64,000 nucleotides of DNA from Streptomyces marianii. Its GTDB lineage: Bacteria > Actinomycetota > Actinomycetes > Streptomycetales > Streptomycetaceae. The notes under the pieces are model-generated. The model made no database searches. It had not been told where the DNA came from and saw only the letters and a list, made by a program, of their open reading frames with translations. Position 1 is the first letter of the stretch. Each line of letters opens with the position of its first letter. Position numbers and translations under genes: made by a program. The DNA lies in the NCBI RefSeq assembly GCF_005795905.1, contig NZ_VAWE01000001.1, positions 5,259,001-5,323,000 of the forward strand, given 5' to 3'. Positions 1-9,849 of the stretch are shown here, in pieces.

Positions 1-744
1 CTTCACTACGAGCACGCCGTGGCCTTCCCTCCCCGGCATCTGGTCAACCCCAAGGCGCACCAGCACCACTTCCGCCCGGAGAACGTCGGGCTCCAGTTCG
101 AGCGACTGAGGTACCCCAACAATCCGCAGCATCCGCTGCCCGAGGCGTCACTGGCGGACCTGGAGAAGCTCGCCGCGGGTACGGAGCCACCACCGTGGCC
201 GGAGGCACTGGCGGCCGTGATGCGTTTCACCGCGGGGCTGCGCGGCCCCGGCGACGAGGGGGAGTCCCGCGACTCCGGGCGGGTGAACCGGTGGGCTCCG
301 ACCGGCGGCAACCTGGGCTCGCCGCATGTCTACGCGCTGCTGCGGGGCGTCCCCGGCCTCCCCGACGGCGTCCACTACTACGACGCCGCCGACCACGCCC
401 TCACCGCCATGCACCCGCACACCGACCACCTGGGCACGCTCCTCGCGGCACTGGGCGGGGACGCCGACGGCGGGGAGCGGCCCGGCGCGCACCTGGTCCT
501 GGCCTCGGACGTCGGCCGCGTCGCCCGGAAGTACGGTCCGTTCGCCTACCGCGTGGGGAACCTCGACACCGGGTGCGCCCTGGCCCAGCTCGCCCTCACG
601 GCCCGGGCGATCGGGCTGGCACACGGCCTGCTGGACCCCCACCCCCTGCAACGGCACCGGGAGCTCCTCGTGGGCGCCGGCGGTCCCGCGCTCATCACCG
701 CCGCCGTGCGGCTCCAGGACGAAGGGAGCGGCTCATGCCGCTGA
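1..744 (+). CDS. SagB-type dehydrogenase (nitroreductase fold), 5' end cut by window
   Basis: The frame is open from base 1 (Leu-His-Tyr-Glu-His...), so the true start lies upstream. The visible 247 residues contain the SagB-type signature around RWAPTGGNLGSPHVYAL, matching the family pattern PSxGNLxPxxxY that lines the FMN site, and a later GxLDTGCALAQLALTARAIGL stretch typical of the second half of the nitroreductase fold. Family role: FMN-dependent oxidation of azolines to azoles in thiazole/oxazole-modified peptides or thiopeptides. The stop overlaps the next gene by 10 bases, so it is translated as part of an operon with the following modification genes. The azoline-forming YcaO partner is not in the window. 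The specific substrate is inferred to be the peptides encoded at 6264-7269. Confidence 0.85.
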   Translation, partial: LHYEHAVAFPPRHLVNPKAHQHHFRPENVGLQFERLRYPNNPQHPLPEASLADLEKLAAGTEPPPWPEALAAVMRFTAGLRGPGDEGESRDSGRVNRWAPTGGNLGSPHVYALLRGVPGLPDGVHYYDAADHALTAMHPHTDHLGTLLAALGGDADGGERPGAHLVLASDVGRVARKYGPFAYRVGNLDTGCALAQLALTARAIGLAHGLLDPHPLQRHRELLVGAGGPALITAAVRLQDEGSGSCR

Positions 745-1463
745 TCGACACGGCCGGCCTCACCGAGCAACTGCTGGCCGCACCGCCCCCCGCATCCGCA
801 TCCGCATCCGCATCCGCCTCCGCCTCCGCCTCCGCCGACGTCCGGCCCGGCGCGGCTCCCCCGCTGCCCGGTGACCCGGTCCATGCGCTGCGCCGCCGCA
901 GCGCGCAACGGCACTGGGCGCCCGAACCGCTGGACGGGGACGTCCTCGTCAAGGCCCTCGCTTACGCCTTCGAGCAGGACGGGCGGCTGTGGCGGTCGGC
1001 CTTCCCCACGCTGCCGACGCCGACCGCGACCGTGCTGGTCCAGAGACTCCTCGACGTTCCGGAGGGCTGCCACCGCTACGAGCCCGAGGGGCGGCGGCTG
1101 GTGCCCGAGCCGCGTGCCCTGCCGCCCCTCGCGGACCTGGTGCTGCAACTGGAGTTCGCCGAGGCACCGGCCCTGGTGGTGGTGCACGGCGATCTGGCGG
1201 CGGCACTCGAACGGCGTGGTGCGGGGGGCCACCGGCTGCTGCTGGCACGCGGCGCGGCGCTGGCCCACTCCGCATGGCTCGCGGCCCTCTCCCTGGGAGC
1301 CGTCGGCTCCGTGTTCGCCGGTGTGCTCGGAGCGGCGGGACGCACCCATCTCGGCCTCGACGGGTCCGGCCGGGCACAGCTGATCGGCCTGGCGCTCGGT
1401 TCCCCCCGCCGGGTGCGGCCGGCCCCGGCCCCGGCGCCGGGCGACCGGACCGGGGAGTGGTGA
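735..1463 (+). CDS. second nitroreductase/SagB-like protein with Ser-Ala repeat
   Basis: ATG at 735 overlaps the upstream SagB gene (stop at 744). The 242-residue product has an N-terminal low-complexity run of alternating Ser-Ala (about residues 19-34), then LRRRSAQRHWAPEPL, which resembles the opening helix of nitroreductases (RRSxRxF...PL), and a C-terminal ALAHSAWLAALSLGAVGSVFAG helix plus LIGLALGSPRR, the usual last strand of the fold. Family knowledge suggests an FMN-dependent oxidoreductase acting on the same RiPP. Many clusters carry a second, divergent SagB-like copy that may be structural rather than catalytic. I cannot tell which this is. The stop TGA shares one base with the next ATG. 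Confidence 0.7.
   Translation: MPLIDTAGLTEQLLAAPPPASASASASASASASADVRPGAAPPLPGDPVHALRRRSAQRHWAPEPLDGDVLVKALAYAFEQDGRLWRSAFPTLPTPTATVLVQRLLDVPEGCHRYEPEGRRLVPEPRALPPLADLVLQLEFAEAPALVVVHGDLAAALERRGAGGHRLLLARGAALAHSAWLAALSLGAVGSVFAGVLGAAGRTHLGLDGSGRAQLIGLALGSPRRVRPAPAPAPGDRTGEW
787..838 (+). repeat. hexanucleotide repeat coding for Ser-Ala
   Basis: About five copies of a CCGCAT-type hexamer followed by four of CCGCCT encode an in-frame Ser-Ala run inside the second nitroreductase-like gene. Because the unit is 6 bases long, slippage would change linker length without shifting the frame. Confidence 0.85.
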
Positions 1464-2602
1464 TGGCCCGCTCATCCACCCATGTGGCCTCCGGCAGCGC
1501 CCAGCCGTCCTGGCTGGACACCGAGCGCCCGGCCATGCGCCCCGACGTCGAGATCACCGAAGGGCTGAACCGGGAACCGCTCGCCTACGACCCCGTCAAC
1601 CGCCACTACACCCGGCTGTCGAGCAGCGGGGCCGCGATCCTCACGGCCCTTGACGGCTCCATGACCGGAAGGGAGTTCGCCGCCCGGGCCACTGGCGCGG
1701 GACGCGGTGACGGCTCCACCGAGCAGGTGGTGCTGGACTTCCTCGGGGAACTGCGCGCCGCCGGACTGCTGACCGTGCCGCCCGCCCGTGGCCGGGACGC
1801 CTCGGCCGTGCGCTTCGCACGCCGCGGTCACATGCCGCGCCTGCCGCTGGTGGGTGCCGGGGTGCGCGCCGTGCTGGACCCGCCCGCCTCGCTGCTCCGC
1901 CGCGCACCGCGGCCGTTCGCCGCGCTGTGGCTCGCCGCGGCGGTCCTCGCGGTGTGGGGGGCGGGATCGGTGCTCGCCGCTCCGCTCGCGGCCGGCGGTC
2001 CCGATCTGTCCCTTCCGGTGTGGGGCTGGACGGTCGTCGTCTGCGGCATGCTGCTGCAGACGACCCTGCACGAGCTGGCCCACGGACTGGCGTGCCGCTA
2101 CTACGGCGTCCCCGTCCGGGAGATCGGCGTCGGCCTTCTCTTCTACCTGGTCCCGGTGGCCTATGTGGACCGCACCGACGCCCACCGGCTCCCCGGACGC
2201 GGCTCCCGGGTGGTCATCGCCCTGGCCGGAGTGGCCCAGGACGTGCTGTGGCTGGGCGGCTGGTCGGCGCTGTCGCTCTACGCCGAGGGGCAGTTCGGGC
2301 AGCTCTGCCTGCTGATGGTCTGGCTGCAGATCGGCCTGCTGCTGGCGAACCTGAACCCACTGCTCCCCACCGACGGGTACCACGCGCTGGAGTCGGCCAT
2401 GGGCGCGCTGAACCTGCGCTCGCGCGCCTTCACCGCTCTGCGGTGCCGGGTGCTGCGGCAGCCGCCGCCGAGCTGGCTCGCCGTCCGTAGCCGCTCCCGG
2501 CAGCTGCACTACCAGGTGTTCGGACTCGTCTGCCTCGCCTACGCGCTGCTCGTCGCGGTCTTCTGCGCACGCTCTCTGCTCCTGCTGTTCGGGGGCGCGT
2601 GA
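1463..2602 (+). CDS. PqqD-like (RRE) domain fused to M50 site-2-protease-like membrane peptidase
   Basis: 379 residues. Residues about 27-105 look like a PqqD-type RiPP recognition element (MRPDVEITEGLNREPLAYDP, then SGAAILTALDGSMTGREFA and an LGELRAAGLL helix). The rest is a polytopic membrane domain with roughly five to six hydrophobic segments. It contains the zinc-metalloprotease motif HELAH at residues 203-207 and the distal NLNPLLPTDGYHALE motif, whose Asp is the usual third zinc ligand of M50/S2P enzymes. A leader-binding domain on a membrane protease suggests leader removal or maturation at the membrane; that coupling is inference. One-base overlaps (ATGA type) join it to both neighbours, so it is core to the operon. 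Confidence 0.82.
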   Translation: MARSSTHVASGSAQPSWLDTERPAMRPDVEITEGLNREPLAYDPVNRHYTRLSSSGAAILTALDGSMTGREFAARATGAGRGDGSTEQVVLDFLGELRAAGLLTVPPARGRDASAVRFARRGHMPRLPLVGAGVRAVLDPPASLLRRAPRPFAALWLAAAVLAVWGAGSVLAAPLAAGGPDLSLPVWGWTVVVCGMLLQTTLHELAHGLACRYYGVPVREIGVGLLFYLVPVAYVDRTDAHRLPGRGSRVVIALAGVAQDVLWLGGWSALSLYAEGQFGQLCLLMVWLQIGLLLANLNPLLPTDGYHALESAMGALNLRSRAFTALRCRVLRQPPPSWLAVRSRSRQLHYQVFGLVCLAYALLVAVFCARSLLLLFGGA

Positions 2603-5235
2603 TGACGACCTCGGCCGCGAGGCAGTCCCCGTCCTCGACACCTACGCAGTCCCCGTCGTCGGCTCAGTCCCCGTCCTCGGCTCAGTCCCCGTCCTTGGCG
2701 CAGTCCTCGGCCGCGAGGCAGTCCCCGTCCTCGACACCTACGCAGTCCCCGTCGTCGGCTCAGTCCCCGACCGCGACGCGAGCCGTGGACGGGCCCGCCG
2801 CCGGACACCCCCTGGCCGTGGGCCCGGCCCTGAGCAGGGTCGCCGGACTCCCGGCGGCCGCTGTGGCACCGCTGGCGGCCGAAGAGGTCGCCGAGGTGCT
2901 GGACGGGATCGCCGCGGCCCGCCGGGAGCTGGCAGCCCTCGCACCGACGGTGACCGGTCTGCTGCACGAGGCCGTGCCGCTGATGCCGACCACCGGCGCG
3001 CGCCGGTCGGTGCTGCGCTGGCGGAGAGCCGCGCACGCCGGGAGACCGGACCTGGTGCCGCCGGAGCTGCTCGCGCAGGTCCGCGAGGCGCTCGCGGCAA
3101 GGGACGCCTCGGCACTGGAACGCTGGGCGGAACGGTCCGGGGCCCTGGCCGAGCTGCGGCAGCTGCTGGGCCGGCGTGCCGGGGCCGCGGAGGCCGCCGA
3201 GGAGCGGACACTGCGGCACCTCATGAGCCTGCCCGCCGTCTCGAGCGCGCTGGCACTCGTCTCGCCCGTGTTCTCCCGTCGTGTACGGCAGCCGGACGGG
3301 CGGCCGCTGGACCGGGGAGAGCGCCTGACCGCGTACGGGTACGCCGTACGGTCCGCGCTGAAGGCCAGTCCGTTGTCCTCGCTCACCCATGTCTCGGTAC
3401 CGGGAGAGGATCACGGCGCACGGGTCCGGGTCGGCCTGCACCCCTTGGCCGGCCGGGCGCTGCTGCGGGCCGCGGCCGTCCGGGACGGGGTACGCGGCCT
3501 GGTCCGCTGGCGGGTCAACGGCTCCCTGCGCGCGGCGGGCCCCGCCGCCCGCCTGAGCGAGCCACGGCAGTCGGTGACCGATGGCTGGGCCTGGTCGGAC
3601 GACGAGGTCCTGGACGCCAGCGGGAGGGAGGACCTGTTCGCGGCCCTGCGCGAGCCGGGGAGGCTGCCCGCCGTCCGGCTGGCCCGCTATCTGGAGGCCG
3701 GCCTGCTGGACATCGACGACCCCTGTCCGCAGGACGGGCTCCTGGACTGGCTCGCCACGGCACTGGCCGCATCCCGTGACCCGTCGGACCTCCGGGCGGC
3801 CATGCGGCTGCGGACCGCGGCGGGCGAGCTGTCGGTCATCGCAGGCGGCGACCCGTCGGTCCGGGCCGACGCGCTGGTACGGCTGCGCGAAGCGCTGGGG
3901 GACGCCCTCGGGGCGCTCGGCGCCGCCGACGACTGGCCGCTGAACGACGTCACCCTGGTCTACGAGGACCGGGCCGGCACCCCGCCGGCCCGCCCGCTGG
4001 ACGCCGAGCGGGCCGCGTCGCTGCGGCGCCATGCCGGGGCCGCGTGCGACAGCCTGCGGGTGTCCCCCGAGTACCAGGCGCTCACGGACGCGTTCGTGGC
4101 GCGGTTCGGCCCGGACGGTGTCTGCGACGACGTGTTCGGCTTCTGCCAGGAGCTGGCCGCCTTCGGAATCCCCGGCGGGCCCGGAGCCCCCGGCGGGCCC
4201 GGCGCTCCCGGAGCCTCGGGAGCCCCTTTCGGCTCCGCCCCCGGCACGGCCCGCCGCCCCGCCCGTCCGGGGCGGTCGAGCGGCCTCCCCTCGGTCGCGG
4301 TCGTCGCCCAGGAGTGCGACGCGGACGGTGACGGCCCGCACCTCGTCGTCAACCAGGTCTCATCGGGCACGGGAGGGCTGGTCGCCCGCTTCCACCGGCT
4401 GTACGACTCCGCCGACGGCACGGGCCCGGCCGGCTTCGCCGAGCGGCTCCGCGCCTGGGTGCGCACCCTTCATCCGGACGCCGAGTGCCTGGAGTTCGTC
4501 CCGGCACGCGAGGCCAATCCCCTGCAGGGGGACAGCTGCGGCCTGCTTCCGGCGCTGCACTGGCCCACCGCGCCGCGCCGGTCCGGTCCGGGCGTACCGG
4601 TGGAGGAGCTGGAACTGGTGCACGACGGCAGGCGGAACGCCCTGGAACTGCGCCGCCGGAGCGGCACACCGGTGGCCCCCGTCTACCTCGGCACCGTCCC
4701 GCGCCATCTGGTGGGCGGAGCGGCCCGGTTCCTGCTCGTCCTGGCGGACCCCTGGTGGCTGCCCCCGGGTCTCGCCGACGGCACGCGCCCCGACGACCCG
4801 CCGGGGCTGGGACGCGCCGTGTCGGCACGGCACGTCGTGGCGGGCGCGGCGGTCCGGCGGGCGCACTGGCGGTGGGAGGCGTCCGAGGTACCGCGCCGGG
4901 AACCGGGTGAGGAACTGGCGGTCTTCCTCGAACGGGTGGACGCCTGGCGGCGCGCCCACGGCATGCCCGCCGAGGTGTACGTCAGGGGTGAGAGCGGCTC
5001 CCCGCAGCGCGGGGACAGGGCCCGCAAACCCCTGTGGCTGGCCTTCGCCTCCCCCACGGGACTGGACCTGCTGGACCGCCTGACCGAACGGCCCGGAACG
5101 GTGGTGGTGTTCGCCGAGTGCCTTCCGCGGCGCCCCGTCGGGGAGGGACCAGGCGCCCATGTGGTCGAGCACTGCGTGCACTTCGCCCGCCCGGCGCGGG
5201 GCACGGAACCGGAAGGGTGCCGAGATGGCAGCTGA
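2602..5235 (+). CDS. LanB-type dehydratase, N-terminal (glutamylation) protein of a split pair
   Basis: 877 residues. Similarity is to the N-terminal part of lantibiotic dehydratases, which use glutamyl-tRNA to glutamylate Ser/Thr of the precursor; recognisable stretches include SSLTHVSV, VYEDRAGT, EYQALTDAFVARFG and LVVNQVSSGTGGL. The elimination domain is absent here and encoded by the next gene, as in thiopeptide and goadsporin-type systems. Two oddities: residues 4-56 are a Ser/Pro/Gln-rich extension with an internal 96-base duplication, and about residues 522-540 form a collagen-like Gly-Pro-rich insert. Start ATG 2602 (GTG 2599 is an alternative) overlaps the upstream stop, and the 3' end overlaps the next gene by 11 bases. 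Confidence 0.88.
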   Translation: MTTSAARQSPSSTPTQSPSSAQSPSSAQSPSLAQSSAARQSPSSTPTQSPSSAQSPTATRAVDGPAAGHPLAVGPALSRVAGLPAAAVAPLAAEEVAEVLDGIAAARRELAALAPTVTGLLHEAVPLMPTTGARRSVLRWRRAAHAGRPDLVPPELLAQVREALAARDASALERWAERSGALAELRQLLGRRAGAAEAAEERTLRHLMSLPAVSSALALVSPVFSRRVRQPDGRPLDRGERLTAYGYAVRSALKASPLSSLTHVSVPGEDHGARVRVGLHPLAGRALLRAAAVRDGVRGLVRWRVNGSLRAAGPAARLSEPRQSVTDGWAWSDDEVLDASGREDLFAALREPGRLPAVRLARYLEAGLLDIDDPCPQDGLLDWLATALAASRDPSDLRAAMRLRTAAGELSVIAGGDPSVRADALVRLREALGDALGALGAADDWPLNDVTLVYEDRAGTPPARPLDAERAASLRRHAGAACDSLRVSPEYQALTDAFVARFGPDGVCDDVFGFCQELAAFGIPGGPGAPGGPGAPGASGAPFGSAPGTARRPARPGRSSGLPSVAVVAQECDADGDGPHLVVNQVSSGTGGLVARFHRLYDSADGTGPAGFAERLRAWVRTLHPDAECLEFVPAREANPLQGDSCGLLPALHWPTAPRRSGPGVPVEELELVHDGRRNALELRRRSGTPVAPVYLGTVPRHLVGGAARFLLVLADPWWLPPGLADGTRPDDPPGLGRAVSARHVVAGAAVRRAHWRWEASEVPRREPGEELAVFLERVDAWRRAHGMPAEVYVRGESGSPQRGDRARKPLWLAFASPTGLDLLDRLTERPGTVVVFAECLPRRPVGEGPGAHVVEHCVHFARPARGTEPEGCRDGS
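2609..2769 (+). repeat. 65-bp perfect direct repeat (period 96 bp) in the LanB 5' end
   Basis: Bases 2609-2673 recur at 2705-2769. The 96-base period is a multiple of three, so the duplication adds 32 codons (AARQSPSSTPTQSPSSAQSP type) and keeps the frame. The region between also contains shorter CAGTCCCCGTC(C/G)TCGGCT units. Confidence 0.93.
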
Positions 5236-6178
5236 GGAATGGCTCTACGCCCGTGTCCACCACACCGGACACCGGGACGGCGAACTCCTGCTCACCGACC
5301 TGGTCCCGAGCTGGGTCGAGGCGGCTGAGCACGCGGGCGTCCGGCGGTGGTTCTTCCTCCGCTACGCCGATGCGAGCGGCCCGCATCTGCGGGTGCGCTT
5401 CCGCGGCACCCCCGACGCGCTCGACGGCTGCTGGGAGGCCGGCCGCGCCCTGTGGAAGGAGCACGTCCGCCCGCCCGACCGGGGGGAGGTCCACCGGCTG
5501 CACCCGCTGGCGGAGGAGGGTCTGCCCGGTCGCGGCAGCCGCCGGCTCAGCCTGGGCCTCTACGGCCGGGAGCACCACTACTACGGATCGCCTCCGGCCG
5601 TCGACATCGCCGAGGAGGTCTTCCAGGCCAGCAGCGAGCTGTGCCTCGACGCGGTCCGGGCGACCGGGGCGGACCGCACGGCCAGGGCGCATCTCGCGGT
5701 ACGGGTGATGCGGTCCTGCATGGGCTCGCTGGGGCTGCGACAGCGCGAGCGGGTCTGGCGGCTGCACTGGGGCCACTGGACCGGCGTCCTCGCCGGGGAC
5801 CCGGAGTCGCTCCGGGAGACGGAGCGCATCGCCGAACGATGGCCGGCGGTCGCACGACCGTCCGCCGGTGTCCGGGAGGCCGCGCGGCCGGTCGCCGCCT
5901 CCGCCGGTGCCGGGTCCGCCGCCGAGCTGCCCGCGGCAGCGGACGCGCTGGGCCGCGACCTCGCGGACGGTGTGCGCCGGGCCCTGCTCGCGGACCCCTC
6001 CGCCGTCGCCTCGCGGCTGCTGCTGATGCAGCTCCACATGACGCTCAACCGGCTCGGCTTCCTCCCCCTCGAAGAGGCCGTGCTCGGGCGGGTGGCGGCG
6101 CGGGCGGAGCGTCCCGCCTCCCCCCGGCTCCCTCCGGCGCTTCACGGCGCCTCCTCCGGCAACACCACCGCCCGTTAG
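5225..6178 (+). CDS. thiopeptide-type / SpaB_C domain protein (split LanB C-terminal half)
   Basis: 317 residues. It begins MAAEEWLYARVHHTGHRDGELL and continues RWFFLRYADASGPHLRVRFRG, the hallmark of the SpaB C-terminal family, whose members either eliminate glutamate to give dehydroamino acids or, as stand-alone paralogs in thiopeptide clusters, catalyse the [4+2] pyridine-forming cycloaddition. Which applies cannot be decided from sequence. Only one such protein is in the window, so elimination for the adjacent LanB half is the simpler reading. The C-terminal part holds MQLHMTLNRLGFLPLEEAVL, also typical of the family. ATG 5225 overlaps the LanB stop by 11 bases. Confidence 0.85.
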   Translation: MAAEEWLYARVHHTGHRDGELLLTDLVPSWVEAAEHAGVRRWFFLRYADASGPHLRVRFRGTPDALDGCWEAGRALWKEHVRPPDRGEVHRLHPLAEEGLPGRGSRRLSLGLYGREHHYYGSPPAVDIAEEVFQASSELCLDAVRATGADRTARAHLAVRVMRSCMGSLGLRQRERVWRLHWGHWTGVLAGDPESLRETERIAERWPAVARPSAGVREAARPVAASAGAGSAAELPAAADALGRDLADGVRRALLADPSAVASRLLLMQLHMTLNRLGFLPLEEAVLGRVAARAERPASPRLPPALHGASSGNTTAR

Positions 6179-6263
6179 CGGGCCCCGAGACCCGGCGCAC
6201 GACAGGGCGCCGTAGCGGCCCCGTCCGGGGCCGCAGCGTGAAGATCACGAAAGGAACAGCGTG

Positions 6264-6428
6264 ATGAACGAACTCGATCTGCGCATCGAGCAGGAGCACC
6301 CCGAGATCGAGGTGCTCCCCGACACCCGGTCCGCGGGCTCCTGCGCCGGTTCTGCCAGCACGGCCGGGTCCTTCTCCTGCCCGGCGGGCTCCATCGGGAG
6401 CGTCGGCTCGGCCAGCAGCGCCGGCTGA
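6264..6428 (+). CDS. RiPP precursor peptide 1
   Basis: 54 residues starting at ATG 6264, 85 bases after the SpaB_C gene, with an AAAGGAACAG ribosome site. The leader is MNELDLRIEQEHPEIEVLPD; the core (TRSAGSCAGSASTAGS... ending SASSAG) is almost entirely Ser, Ala, Gly, Thr with two Cys. It shares the leader motif with three downstream peptides and resembles the family annotated as thiazolylpeptide-type bacteriocin precursors. Cleavage is probably near the LPD/TRSAG boundary, which is inference. The Ser/Thr/Cys content suits azole formation plus dehydration. Confidence 0.88.
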   Translation: MNELDLRIEQEHPEIEVLPDTRSAGSCAGSASTAGSFSCPAGSIGSVGSASSAG

Positions 6429-6464
6429 CACGGATCGTCCGTATCCGTCCGCACGGACCCGACC

Positions 6465-6488
6465 GCGGCTCCGGAACCCCGGAGCCGC
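6465..6488 (+). terminator. perfect 10-bp hairpin between precursors 1 and 2
   Basis: GCGGCTCCGG (6465-6474), loop AACC, CCGGAGCCGC (6479-6488). There is no U-tract after it, and it lies 28 bases before the next ATG. It may attenuate or stabilise rather than end the transcript. Confidence 0.6.
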
Positions 6489-6515
6489 ACCACCTCGACA
6501 CGACAGGAGACCGCA

Positions 6516-6674
6516 ATGAACGACCTCGACCTGCGTCTGGACCAGGAGATGCCCGAACTGGAGGTGCTCCCCGAGGAGTACTCGGCCGGGAACGTGTCCT
6601 GCGCCGCCACCGTCGGCTCCGGTTCCTGCCCGGCCATGACCTGGGGGACCGCGAGCACCCTGAGCTCCAAGTAG
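6516..6674 (+). CDS. RiPP precursor peptide 2
   Basis: 52 residues from ATG 6516, preceded by GACAGGAGACCGCA. The leader MNDLDLRLDQEMPELEVLPE is close to that of peptide 1. The core starts about EYSAGNVSCAATVGSGSCPA and ends with a Met-Thr-Trp-Gly segment and SSK. It has two Cys, and it is the only one of the four cores with Trp and Met. Same inferred modification route as its neighbours. Confidence 0.88.
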   Translation: MNDLDLRLDQEMPELEVLPEEYSAGNVSCAATVGSGSCPAMTWGTASTLSSK

Positions 6675-6773
6675 CCCGCCCCACCACGGCAGGCCGGGGC
6701 GCGTGATCCCGGTCGGCCCCAGCAGACGAGCCGGCGGACACGCCGGTCACACGAGTAACGAGCAAGGAGACGC

Positions 6774-6953
6774 ATGGACAGGTTGCCCGACACCGACGTA
6801 CTGGAACTCGTGCTGGAGCGCGAACTCCCCGAGCTGGAGGTGCTGCCGGCCGGCTACGCCCCGGGCAGCACCCTCGGCAGCGCGGGGAGCATCAGCTGCG
6901 CGTCCTGCCCCGCCGCCTCGATCAGCAGCGCGTCGACCGCCAGCAGCCACTGA
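6774..6953 (+). CDS. RiPP precursor peptide 3
   Basis: 59 residues from ATG 6774 with AGCAAGGAGACGC just upstream, an excellent ribosome site. The leader MDRLPDTDVLELVLERELPE diverges at its start but keeps PELEVLP. The core GYAPGSTLGSAGSISCASCP and the following Ser/Ala/Thr stretch end in SSH and contain two Cys close together (CASC). The gene is in a different frame from a longer overlapping open frame, so only the conserved leader and ribosome site identify it. Confidence 0.88.
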   Translation: MDRLPDTDVLELVLERELPELEVLPAGYAPGSTLGSAGSISCASCPAASISSASTASSH

Positions 6954-7083
6954 GCAGGACGACGGAACGGCGACGGACCAGCGCCGCTCGCCGCCCCCGT
7001 CGAGCCGAGGCGGCTCCGAGGACAGGCCGCCGCCGTCGGCCCGGCGGACCCCCCACACACGGACCTTCGTACAGGAGAAGAAC

Positions 7084-7269
7084 ATGAACGACATCACCCC
7101 GGCTTCCGGCCCGGTACTCGACCTGCGCCTCGATCAGGAGGCGCCGGAGCTGGAGGTGCTGCCGGCGGCCCACTCGCCCGGCAGCACCGTCGGCTGCGCC
7201 GGAACCGGCAGCTCCATCTCCACGCCGTCGGGATGCTTCAGCAGCGCGGGCACGGCAAGCAGCGTGTGA
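7084..7269 (+). CDS. RiPP precursor peptide 4
   Basis: 61 residues from ATG 7084, with CAGGAGAAGAAC upstream. The leader has a longer front (MNDITPASGPV) followed by LDLRLDQEAPELEVLP. The core AAHSPGSTVGCAGTGSSIST... contains two Cys, a Pro and a Phe and ends SSV. It is the last gene of the biosynthetic run, since the next gene is an unrelated regulator after a 339-base gap. Confidence 0.88.
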   Translation: MNDITPASGPVLDLRLDQEAPELEVLPAAHSPGSTVGCAGTGSSISTPSGCFSSAGTASSV

Positions 7270-8964: not shown

Positions 8965-9849
8965 ATGACCAAGAAGACGCGGGTTCGCGTCGCGCGGATA
9001 GCCGCCGGAGCGGTGATCGCCGCCGGTGCTTCCCTGACCGCTGCGGGCGCGGCGCAGGCCCTCGGTGCCGGTGACCTGGGCGTCAGCGCTGAGGTGACGC
9101 AGGAGGGTGCTGAGATCGGTCTCGGCATCCGTGAGGGCGAGGACGCCGGGACCAGCCTCGGTCAGACGAGCGGCGGCACCACTGACGGTGGTGCGACCGA
9201 CGGTGGTGCGACCGACGGTGGGGCCACTGACGGTGGTGCGACCGACGGCGGGGCCACGGACGGTGGAGCCGCGGACGGTGGAGCCACGGACGGTGGAGCG
9301 ACCGACGGTGGAGTGACCGACGGCGGCACCACTGACGGTGGAGCGACCGACGGTGGTGCGACCGACGGTGGTGCGACCGACGGTGGTGCGACCGACGGTG
9401 GGGCCACGGACGGTGGTGCGACCGACGGCGGTAACGCCAATTCCGGCGGTAACGCCAACTCGGGTGGCAACGCCAATTCCGGTGGCAACGCCAATTCCGG
9501 CGGTAACGCCAACTCGGGCGGTAACGCCAACTCCGGCGGCGCCACCGGCGGTGACCAGGGCGGTTCCACCGAGGGCTCCGCGACCACCGGCGGTTCCGCC
9601 GCGACCGGTGGCGGCGACGGCGGCTCCGACGGCTGCACCGTGAGCATCGAGGGTGCCGAGTGCGCCGACAACACCGACACCGACTCCGCCGGCTCCCAGC
9701 CGGTCGAGCAGGGCAAGGCCAAGGAGGAGCTGGCCGAGACCGGCGCCGCCGAGACCACGTTCCTGCTGGTCGGCGCCGCGACGATGATCGCCGGCGGCAT
9801 CGGCTTCCGTATGCTGCCCCGCCTCGTCGGCGGCCGCGCCGCTGTCTGA
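8965..9849 (+). CDS. sortase-anchored (LAETG) surface protein with TDGGA and NANSGG repeats
   Basis: 294 residues. The signal peptide [32 protein letters not shown] (residues 1-32, positions only approximate for cleavage) is followed by a short globular part. Then come about 17 copies of a five-residue TDGGA-type repeat (residues about 72-156), six NANSGG repeats (about 157-194), a Gly/Ser linker, a Cys-containing segment ([19 protein letters not shown]), and a C-terminal LAETG sorting motif with a hydrophobic helix and an [10 protein letters not shown] tail. LAxTG is the motif used by Streptomyces class E sortases, so the protein is predicted to be covalently attached to peptidoglycan. Function is unknown; the repeats look like a flexible stalk. 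A 17-bp terminator follows. Confidence 0.9.
9174..9540 (+). repeat. in-frame tandem repeats: 15-bp TDGGA units then 18-bp NANSGG units
   Basis: About 17 degenerate copies of GACGGTGGTGCGACC-type units are followed by six copies of an 18-base unit encoding NANSGG. All are in frame, so copy-number change would alter stalk length only. Confidence 0.92.

Follow-up and report, generated by a model that had tools for sequence, protein, structure and literature searches.

A probable spongiicolazolicin-type operon of Streptomyces marianii and the wider family of nine-triad azole peptide clusters

The stretch of DNA analyzed here (the window) spans 64,000 nt of the 9.0-Mb genome of Streptomyces marianii (G000:C1:5259001-5323000), and its left edge cuts an operon for ribosomally synthesized and post-translationally modified peptides (RiPPs); the 20 kb upstream were read too, and negative positions below denote bases before the window. 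We suggest that this operon probably directs the synthesis of goadsporin-like linear azole/dehydroamino peptides, most likely members of the spongiicolazolicin family, with predicted products of 27-30 residues in which eight or nine azoles are accompanied by four to six dehydro residues. This reading draws on the regular spacing of the precursor cores, on the operon's conservation in a spongiicolazolicin producer and on the nature of its enzymes. All named genes of the cluster lie on the + strand:

-4751 to -3246, +, LuxR/AAA regulator, upstream of the window
-3073 (or -3046, with a better ribosome-binding site) to -1682, +, YcaO protein of the SagD type (G000:C1:5255927-5257315), about 1.7 kb before the window
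-1669 to -1010, +, zinc-binding E1-like protein of 219 aa, upstream of the window
about -1013 (G000:C1:5257987) to 744, +, RRE-E1-SagB fusion of 585 aa, running into the window with its 3' part at 1-744
735 to 1463 (ATG at 735), +, SagB2, a paralogue of nitroreductase fold; Pfam Nitroreductase 30.3 bits (searches based on 741-1460, i.e., two residues short)
1460 to 2602, +, RRE (PqqD-like)-M50 membrane metalloprotease; Pfam M50 40.6 bits, above cut-off
2599 to 5235, +, LanB-type glutamylation protein, GodF homologue; matches goadsporin protein 9jhq
5225 to 6178, +, SpaB_C (Lant_dehydr_C) protein; Pfam 132.4 bits
6261/6264 to 6428, +, precursor 1; NCBIfam RiPP_thiocil 61.7 bits (cut-off 25); nine triads
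6516 to 6674, +, precursor 2; RiPP_thiocil 65.5 bits; eight triads
6774 to 6953, +, precursor 3; RiPP_thiocil 56.9 bits; nine triads
7084 to 7269, +, precursor 4; 88-95% identical copies in L040, L060 and L061; nine triads

A preliminary description of the window had listed two SagB-like genes, a PqqD-M50 protein, a LanB, a SpaB_C protein and four precursors in a same-strand run, and all of them are found there, the first SagB-like gene being in fact the C-terminal third of the 585-aa fusion that starts upstream. The overlaps that it saw between the first five genes are borne out by the coordinates (735-744, 1460-1463, 2599-2602 and 5225-5235). It also held that the cyclodehydratase had to be upstream or absent and that YcaO and E1-like genes should be looked for there; both are indeed present upstream. 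The cluster is not a chance assembly, since 44 other related loci exist and precursors 1-3 score above the RiPP_thiocil cut-off.

Precursor cores and the nine-triad pattern

Precursors 1-3, the only ones on which the model was run, match RiPP_thiocil ('thiocillin family RiPP'). An iterated profile started from the four precursors of the operon retrieved 181 precursor open reading frames (E < 1e-3, start codons uncurated) in 44/44 clusters, 34 of which hold four or five precursors each. An S-[C/T]-P anchor lies within the last 34 residues in 160 of 179 precursors (those of loci L079 and L081 left out), giving 122 unique tails. Counting from the anchor Pro in these 122 cores, Ser, Thr or Cys stands at -13 in 96%, at -10, -7, -4 and -1 in 100% each, and at +3, +6, +9 and +12 in 98% each, where -2 and -1 are fixed by the anchor and the sequences are related rather than independent trials. 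The residue after each of these nine positions is Ser, Thr or Cys in 0-16%, and the one before is Ser or Thr in 31-100%, being otherwise mostly Gly or Ala.

In goadsporin, azoles need X1-(S/T/C)-X2 and dehydroalanine (Dha) needs prior azoles (PMC5303826). Read from the sequences, the nine-position pattern is this X-(S/T/C)-X azole rule, with Dha or dehydrobutyrine (Dhb) to be expected where X1 is Ser or Thr, and such a triad code predicts azole and dehydro residues in over a hundred cores. Applied to the S. marianii precursors, it gives four to six predicted dehydro residues besides the azoles of the eight or nine triads listed above; the raw azole counts of ten (precursor 1) and nine (precursor 2) include one residue before the core. 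The [M+H]+ values calculated for fully modified cores, which leave that residue out, are 2168.75 (29 residues) or 2225.77 (30) for precursor 1, 2341.91 (27) or 2398.93 (28) for precursor 2, 2209.81 (28) or 2266.84 (29) for precursor 3, and 2195.79 (28) or 2252.81 (29) for precursor 4, incomplete modification being expected to shift them in increments of 18.01 or 2.02 Da. The predicted cores are 29/30 (precursor 1), 27/28 (precursor 2) and 28 residues long (precursors 3 and 4; 29 with the preceding Gly), and they end in Gly, Lys, His and Val, with no C-terminal Thr. The leaders share the loose motif E-x-[LMIV], which was found in 179/181 precursors and is followed by Pro in 100 of them.

The two related Actinoplanes loci, L079 and L081, have one precursor each, with long Gly-Cys repeats, and are without LanB and SpaB_C in the DNA at hand. 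Their cores contain 12.3% Ser and 1.9% Thr, versus 28.5% and 13.5% elsewhere, and this low Ser+Thr content (14% versus 42%) fits a LanB whose substrates are Ser and Thr residues of the core. The products of these two loci may be thiazole-only peptides.

The spongiicolazolicin producer, the distribution of the cluster and its protease

The preliminary description had considered the cluster a possible new subtype, provided that it did not closely match, as a whole, a described compound family. Such a match is largely what the genome of Streptomyces pacificus CWH03 (L060) holds, with a LuxR gene, seven enzyme genes and four matching precursors. Identities to the S. marianii proteins are 93% for YcaO, 88-89% for the M50, fusion and E1-like proteins, 84% for LuxR, 76% for SagB2 and SpaB_C, and 75-80% for LanB, which lies in an open 930-aa frame (75% over its first 519 residues and 80% over its last 353, with a repeat between; the C-terminus was missed by blastp and found by DNA and genome searches). 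Streptomyces sp. CWH03 is the reported source of spongiicolazolicin A (29 residues) and spongiicolazolicin B (28 residues) (PMC8838263), and tripeptide blocks of these compounds are described second-hand in another paper (PMC11583998). Counted from the first triad, three of the four CWH03 cores comprise 28 residues, and 29 with the Gly in front of it, so that the predicted cores fit the reported sizes, a likeness in length of predicted cores only. The close CWH03 cluster, the four matching precursors and the 28/29-residue cores make membership of the spongiicolazolicin family likely, even though the precursors of S. marianii vary at several core positions. The case that the operon makes peptides of this type is good but circumstantial, and we regard it as quite probable; the link is likely rather than direct, the CWH03 compound itself being tied to the CWH03 cluster circumstantially. 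S. spongiicola strains reportedly make spongiicolazolicins as well, and an S. spongiicola record holds a LanB 79% identical to that of S. marianii. Rather than a new class, the operon probably represents a near relative of a cluster already characterised, which makes it less surprising.

An M50 relative scoring above 180 bits occurs in 12/295 genomes of the genus (S. marianii included), and in the other 11 all seven enzyme genes are present, their order unchanged. Nine control loci with M50 scores of 61-79 bits are without the seven-enzyme set; one of them (L059) has a different YcaO/LanB/M50 cluster and another (L051) is a 5.7-kb contig, which says little. A scan with the M50 alignment over one genome per species (84,980), which used two peptide patterns and hence gives a lower bound, returned 38 loci, 37 of them with the cluster or most of it, in Streptomyces, Kitasatospora, Streptosporangium, Planobispora, Planomonospora, Nonomuraea, Sphaerisporangium, Sphaerimonospora, Actinoplanes, Nesterenkonia, Actinomyces, Patulibacter and two Bacillus. 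After the removal of four of 48 loci as duplicates (L097, an M50 fragment only, was left out), there are 44 other non-redundant clusters, in which YcaO, the E1-like protein, the fusion and M50 are found in 44/44, SagB2 in 43 (in L071 the sequence stops short of this gene), and LanB and SpaB_C in 42 each. Gene order is rearranged in L071 and L093. The two Bacillus loci (L094, Bacillus sp. N13C7, and L095, Bacillus atrophaeus) represent the same cluster type outside Actinomycetota.

The M50 relatives retain HExxH in 44/44 and NxNxLxPxDG in 41/44 cases, where the presence of M50 and much of the motif conservation are built into the sample, the 44 clusters having been collected via M50 and the scan having used two M50 motifs. 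Only a reverse test starting from YcaO is free of this bias. YcaO alone gave matches with E < 1e-90 in 21/392 genomes of the genus, 16 of the 21 above 380 bits. The twelve of these 16 that the M50 search had covered coincide with the 12 strong-M50 genomes, and two more (G300 and G307) also have M50 proteins, of 192 and 198 bits; thus, with G361 and G381 left out, a strong YcaO is accompanied by an M50 above 180 bits in 14/14 genomes, S. marianii included. The five genomes with a weaker YcaO only (312-332 bits) have no M50 above 45 bits. This outcome (14/14 versus 0/5) implies that the RRE-M50 protein goes with YcaO proteins of this type but not with their cousins in the BerA-type thiopeptide clusters considered below.

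The RRE-M50 protein is probably the leader protease, as its relation to the daptide protein MpaP and the reverse test suggest. RRE-fused site-2 proteases remove leaders in daptides (PMC10036551), and such an enzyme may explain leader loss in azole peptides without an ABC-peptidase. The preliminary description had seen in the membrane protease the ground for a possible new subtype. That the operon and its relatives form a RiPP subclass apart from the spongiicolazolicins, defined by this protease, would agree with the 14/14 association and with the retention of M50 in the two clusters without LanB; moreover, a protease review lists M103 with linear azole-containing peptides (LAPs), M50 being given there for epipeptides and pearlins (PMC10885120). 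However, the protease type already occurs in daptides, and the spongiicolazolicin producer has a cluster encoding 75-93% identical proteins, which weakens the claim of a new subtype; we consider such a separate subclass unlikely.

In the YcaO tree, the S. marianii cluster and seven others form one clade (support 100/100), with G230 nearest and CWH03 and strain I6 next. The precursors follow SpaB_C only in this clade (7/44 and the S. marianii cluster), whereas they lie between SagB2 and M50 in 35/44 clusters and before M50 in the two rearranged loci. An ABC-transporter ATPase (the count is by ATPase only) adjoins 31/44 clusters on the same strand, the two Bacillus ones having it on the opposite strand, and none was found beside the cluster in the seven relatives of the S. 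marianii clade. In the record of one of these relatives, Streptomyces sp. I6 (L061, 11227-13736), LanB lies in two reading frames, which may reflect an assembly error or a broken gene.

Modifying enzymes and a possible pathway

The profiles used here come from enzyme alignments (A2-A5) of 18-20 chosen rows out of up to 45, the over-long LanB of L064 and rows with faulty frames having been left out or replaced. The RRE-E1-SagB fusion matches NCBIfam cyclo_dehyd_2 above its cut-off and antibiot_sagB slightly below its own. With a 20-row profile, its first half matches the leader-binding/E1 part of MusD, TruD and LynD, and its last part the SagB-type oxidases 3eo7, CyaGox and BmdC; its predicted model (pLDDT 81.5) retrieved cyanobactin heterocyclases, MccB, a McbBCD chain and ThcOx with Foldseek. 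The model of SagB2 (pLDDT 87.4) has a nitroreductase fold and retrieved 3eo7, BmdC and a McbBCD chain. The Lys-Tyr pair seen in BmdC, catalytic in McbC, is conserved in the SagB portion of the fusion in 43/44 relatives (Arg-Tyr in L079). SagB2 lacks this Lys: the KY dipeptide occurs in 0/43 relatives, and the aligned column, own row included, holds Lys in 0/44 (Arg in 28, Leu in 8, others in 8), where all motif counts rely on frames from uncurated BLAST matches and that of SagB2 was redone on stop-free frames.

SagB2 may thus be the pseudo-enzyme half of an azoline dehydrogenase, a trait that is not confined to this family. Uniqueness of the SagB pair to it was rejected, because S. marianii has a KY/no-KY pair in a BerA-type thiopeptide cluster too and because the berninamycin cluster table (PMC9290621) lists the dehydrogenases berE1 and berE2, along with two YcaO-annotated genes, berG1/G2. 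This BerA-type cluster (G000:C1:3398000-3408000, L117), which by eye lies beside rpsL-rpsG-fusA-tuf, encodes a precursor core SCTTSSVSTSSSSSSS, the KY/no-KY SagB pair and a P450. Berninamycin-type clusters share the two dehydrogenase genes with the operon and differ from it in the BerA-type core, the P450 and, in the published cluster, a pyridine-forming gene; no M50 match was found in the 20 kb around the S. marianii BerA-type cluster.

The LanB protein has no Pfam or NCBIfam match at 1e-3. It matches the goadsporin protein 9jhq at 1.9e-39 as a single sequence and at 1.3e-152 with an 18-row profile (positions 7-806 of 825), and its profile matches 6ec7 at 8.3e-49. The 18-row profile of the SpaB_C protein finds the lantibiotic dehydratase 5ehk (2.4e-21), NisB (1.8e-10) and TsrE (1.7e-6), in this order. 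We take 9jhq to be GodF, 6ec7 to be TbtB and 5ehk to be MibB, entries that bear only general titles such as 'goadsporin biosynthetic protein' or 'lantibiotic dehydratase'. The split LanB that marks goadsporin, i.e., a GodF-type glutamylation protein and an elimination protein, is thus found here too, and the SpaB_C profile resembles the elimination domains of full LanB proteins, which makes glutamate elimination its probable function.

The preliminary description had left the choice between a thiopeptide-like and a goadsporin-like peptide. Its goadsporin side, an azole-plus-dehydro peptide, agrees with the YcaO protein, the E1-like partner and the GodF-type LanB. If the product were instead a thiopeptide (pyritide), SpaB_C would form the central pyridine and Dha residues would close the macrocycle, an idea to which the 'thiocillin family RiPP' matches of precursors 1-3, the 43% (YcaO) and 31% (RRE-E1-SagB) identities to the BerA-type cluster of the same genome and the rank of TsrE as the best single-sequence structure match of SpaB_C (8.9e-5) lend themselves. 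However, the sole SpaB_C of the cluster is required for elimination and scores 26 bits against the pyridine synthase model (cut-off 325), its profile ranks 5ehk and NisB far ahead of TsrE, and the cores consist of evenly spaced triads. The genome holds four more Lant_dehydr_C matches, all of them more than 570 kb from the cluster, and, the weak TsrE match apart, neither the SpaB_C models and profile nor these genome-wide matches revealed a pyridine synthase beside the elimination protein. A thiopeptide is therefore very improbable. Outside the cluster, two Lant_dehydr_C matches stand close together (G000:C1:5837698-5840538), perhaps in a separate lanthipeptide-type locus.

For the goadsporin-like linear peptides that we favour, we propose the following pathway. 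The RRE of the fusion would capture leaders with the E-x-L-P motif, and YcaO, together with the small zinc-binding E1-like protein, would cyclise the central Ser/Thr/Cys in every X-(S/T/C)-X triad. Oxidation of the azolines would then fall to the SagB domain that has the Lys-Tyr pair, SagB2 acting as its structural partner in a putative heterodimer. LanB and SpaB_C may next glutamylate, and then eliminate, the Ser/Thr just before an azole, giving Dha or Dhb, and the RRE-M50 protease would bind the same leader and cut it at the membrane, perhaps with trimming afterwards. Goadsporin shares with the operon the GodF-type LanB, SpaB_C, YcaO and SagB, the X-(S/T/C)-X rule and Dha formation after the azoles; it differs in its fused cyclodehydratase, its acetyltransferase GodH and its ABC-peptidase GodB, none of which has a counterpart among the nine proteins scanned (-4751 to 8433), whereas the operon has split enzymes, an RRE-M50 protease and four precursors.

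Several observations weigh against this reading. The PqqD match of the M50 protein (20.4 bits) is below its cut-off (23.4), and daptide_HExxH reaches 144.7 bits, half of its cut-off of 300, as in a related protein that is not an equivalog. The single SpaB_C sequence ranks TsrE above NisB (0.098). By the numbering of the daptide paper, cleavage directly follows the motif Pro (PMC10036551), unlike here, where a 28/29-residue core needs a cut five or six residues past it. No exporter was recognised in the cluster (proteins from -4751 to 8433). The CWH03 genome has a second YcaO locus with three YcaO genes, a SagB and, by eye, a LanB, a SpaB_C and an RRE-M50 protein, where no Ser/Thr/Cys-rich precursor was found and one could lie elsewhere. 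The genes, their family assignments and conservation, the triad code and the absence of the Lys from SagB2 are shown directly; the chemistry as a whole, the step order, the heterodimer, the cut site and the tie to spongiicolazolicins are inferred.

The operon shares with the daptides, besides the RRE-fused site-2 protease, a similar leader motif (ELExMEAP there, ELEVLP-like here), and some daptide subgroups are reported with YcaO/LanB as secondary modifiers (PMC10036551), yet a daptide variant of that kind is hardly credible, since no daptide aminotransferase, alcohol dehydrogenase or DUF-RRE protein was found among the nine proteins scanned and the cores do not end in Thr.

Likeness to unrelated polyazole peptides and neighbouring features

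Carnazolamide, a dehydrazole, has eight azoles and eight Dha, each directly before an azole. Dehydrazoles and nostatin A resemble the predicted products in their cores of about 30 residues, in a Pro at position 15 and in Dha or Dhb next to azoles, and by our own reading the published nostatin A core consists of nine triads. In the S. marianii cores 1, 3 and 4 and in three of the four CWH03 cores the first Pro is at 15, a count that starts from the chosen cut. These compounds depend on LanM-type dehydratases and proteusin leaders, and the enzymes are unrelated; among the nine proteins scanned there is a LanB and no match to the LanM-type DUF4135. Membership of the dehydrazoles was rejected, as that class uses LanM-type enzymes.

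What is new here is the breadth of the family, the nine-triad code and the likeness to nostatin and carnazolamide. We propose, rather tentatively, a large family in Actinomycetota and Bacillus, barely described in the open-access literature, that would follow a nine-azole blueprint (five triads up to the Pro, a linker residue and four triads), use an asymmetric dehydrogenase with one SagB devoid of the catalytic Lys, and release its products through an RRE-guided membrane protease. In length, azole count and Pro15, carnazolamide and nostatin would have arrived by convergence at almost the same design, which hints at a common target or shape. This likeness in size and Pro raises the question of the target of polyazole peptides, and both spongiicolazolicins (PMC8838263) and carnazolamide are without antibacterial activity in the tests cited. 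This family-level pattern is, in our opinion, worth specialist attention, and the goadsporin guess of the preliminary description was a good one.

A three-YcaO cluster type, with SagB, LanB, SpaB_C, RRE-M50 and an ABC transporter (assigned partly by eye), occurs both in S. marianii (G000:C1:645000-665000, L112 and L113) and, as the second YcaO locus, in CWH03 (G295:C13:113000-132000, L114 and L115), with no Ser/Thr/Cys-rich precursor found in either. Upstream of the regulator, one further gene was placed:

-7348 to -6086, +, prfB (named by eye)

On the 3' side, the genes after the precursors are an XRE regulator, a small neighbour of it and, by eye, ftsE-ftsX; an ABC-ATPase match that we take as FtsE also lies 8-9 kb 3' of M50 in L040, L060 and L061. 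Between the cluster and ftsE, positions 8965-9849 encode a protein with a long TDGGA repeat.

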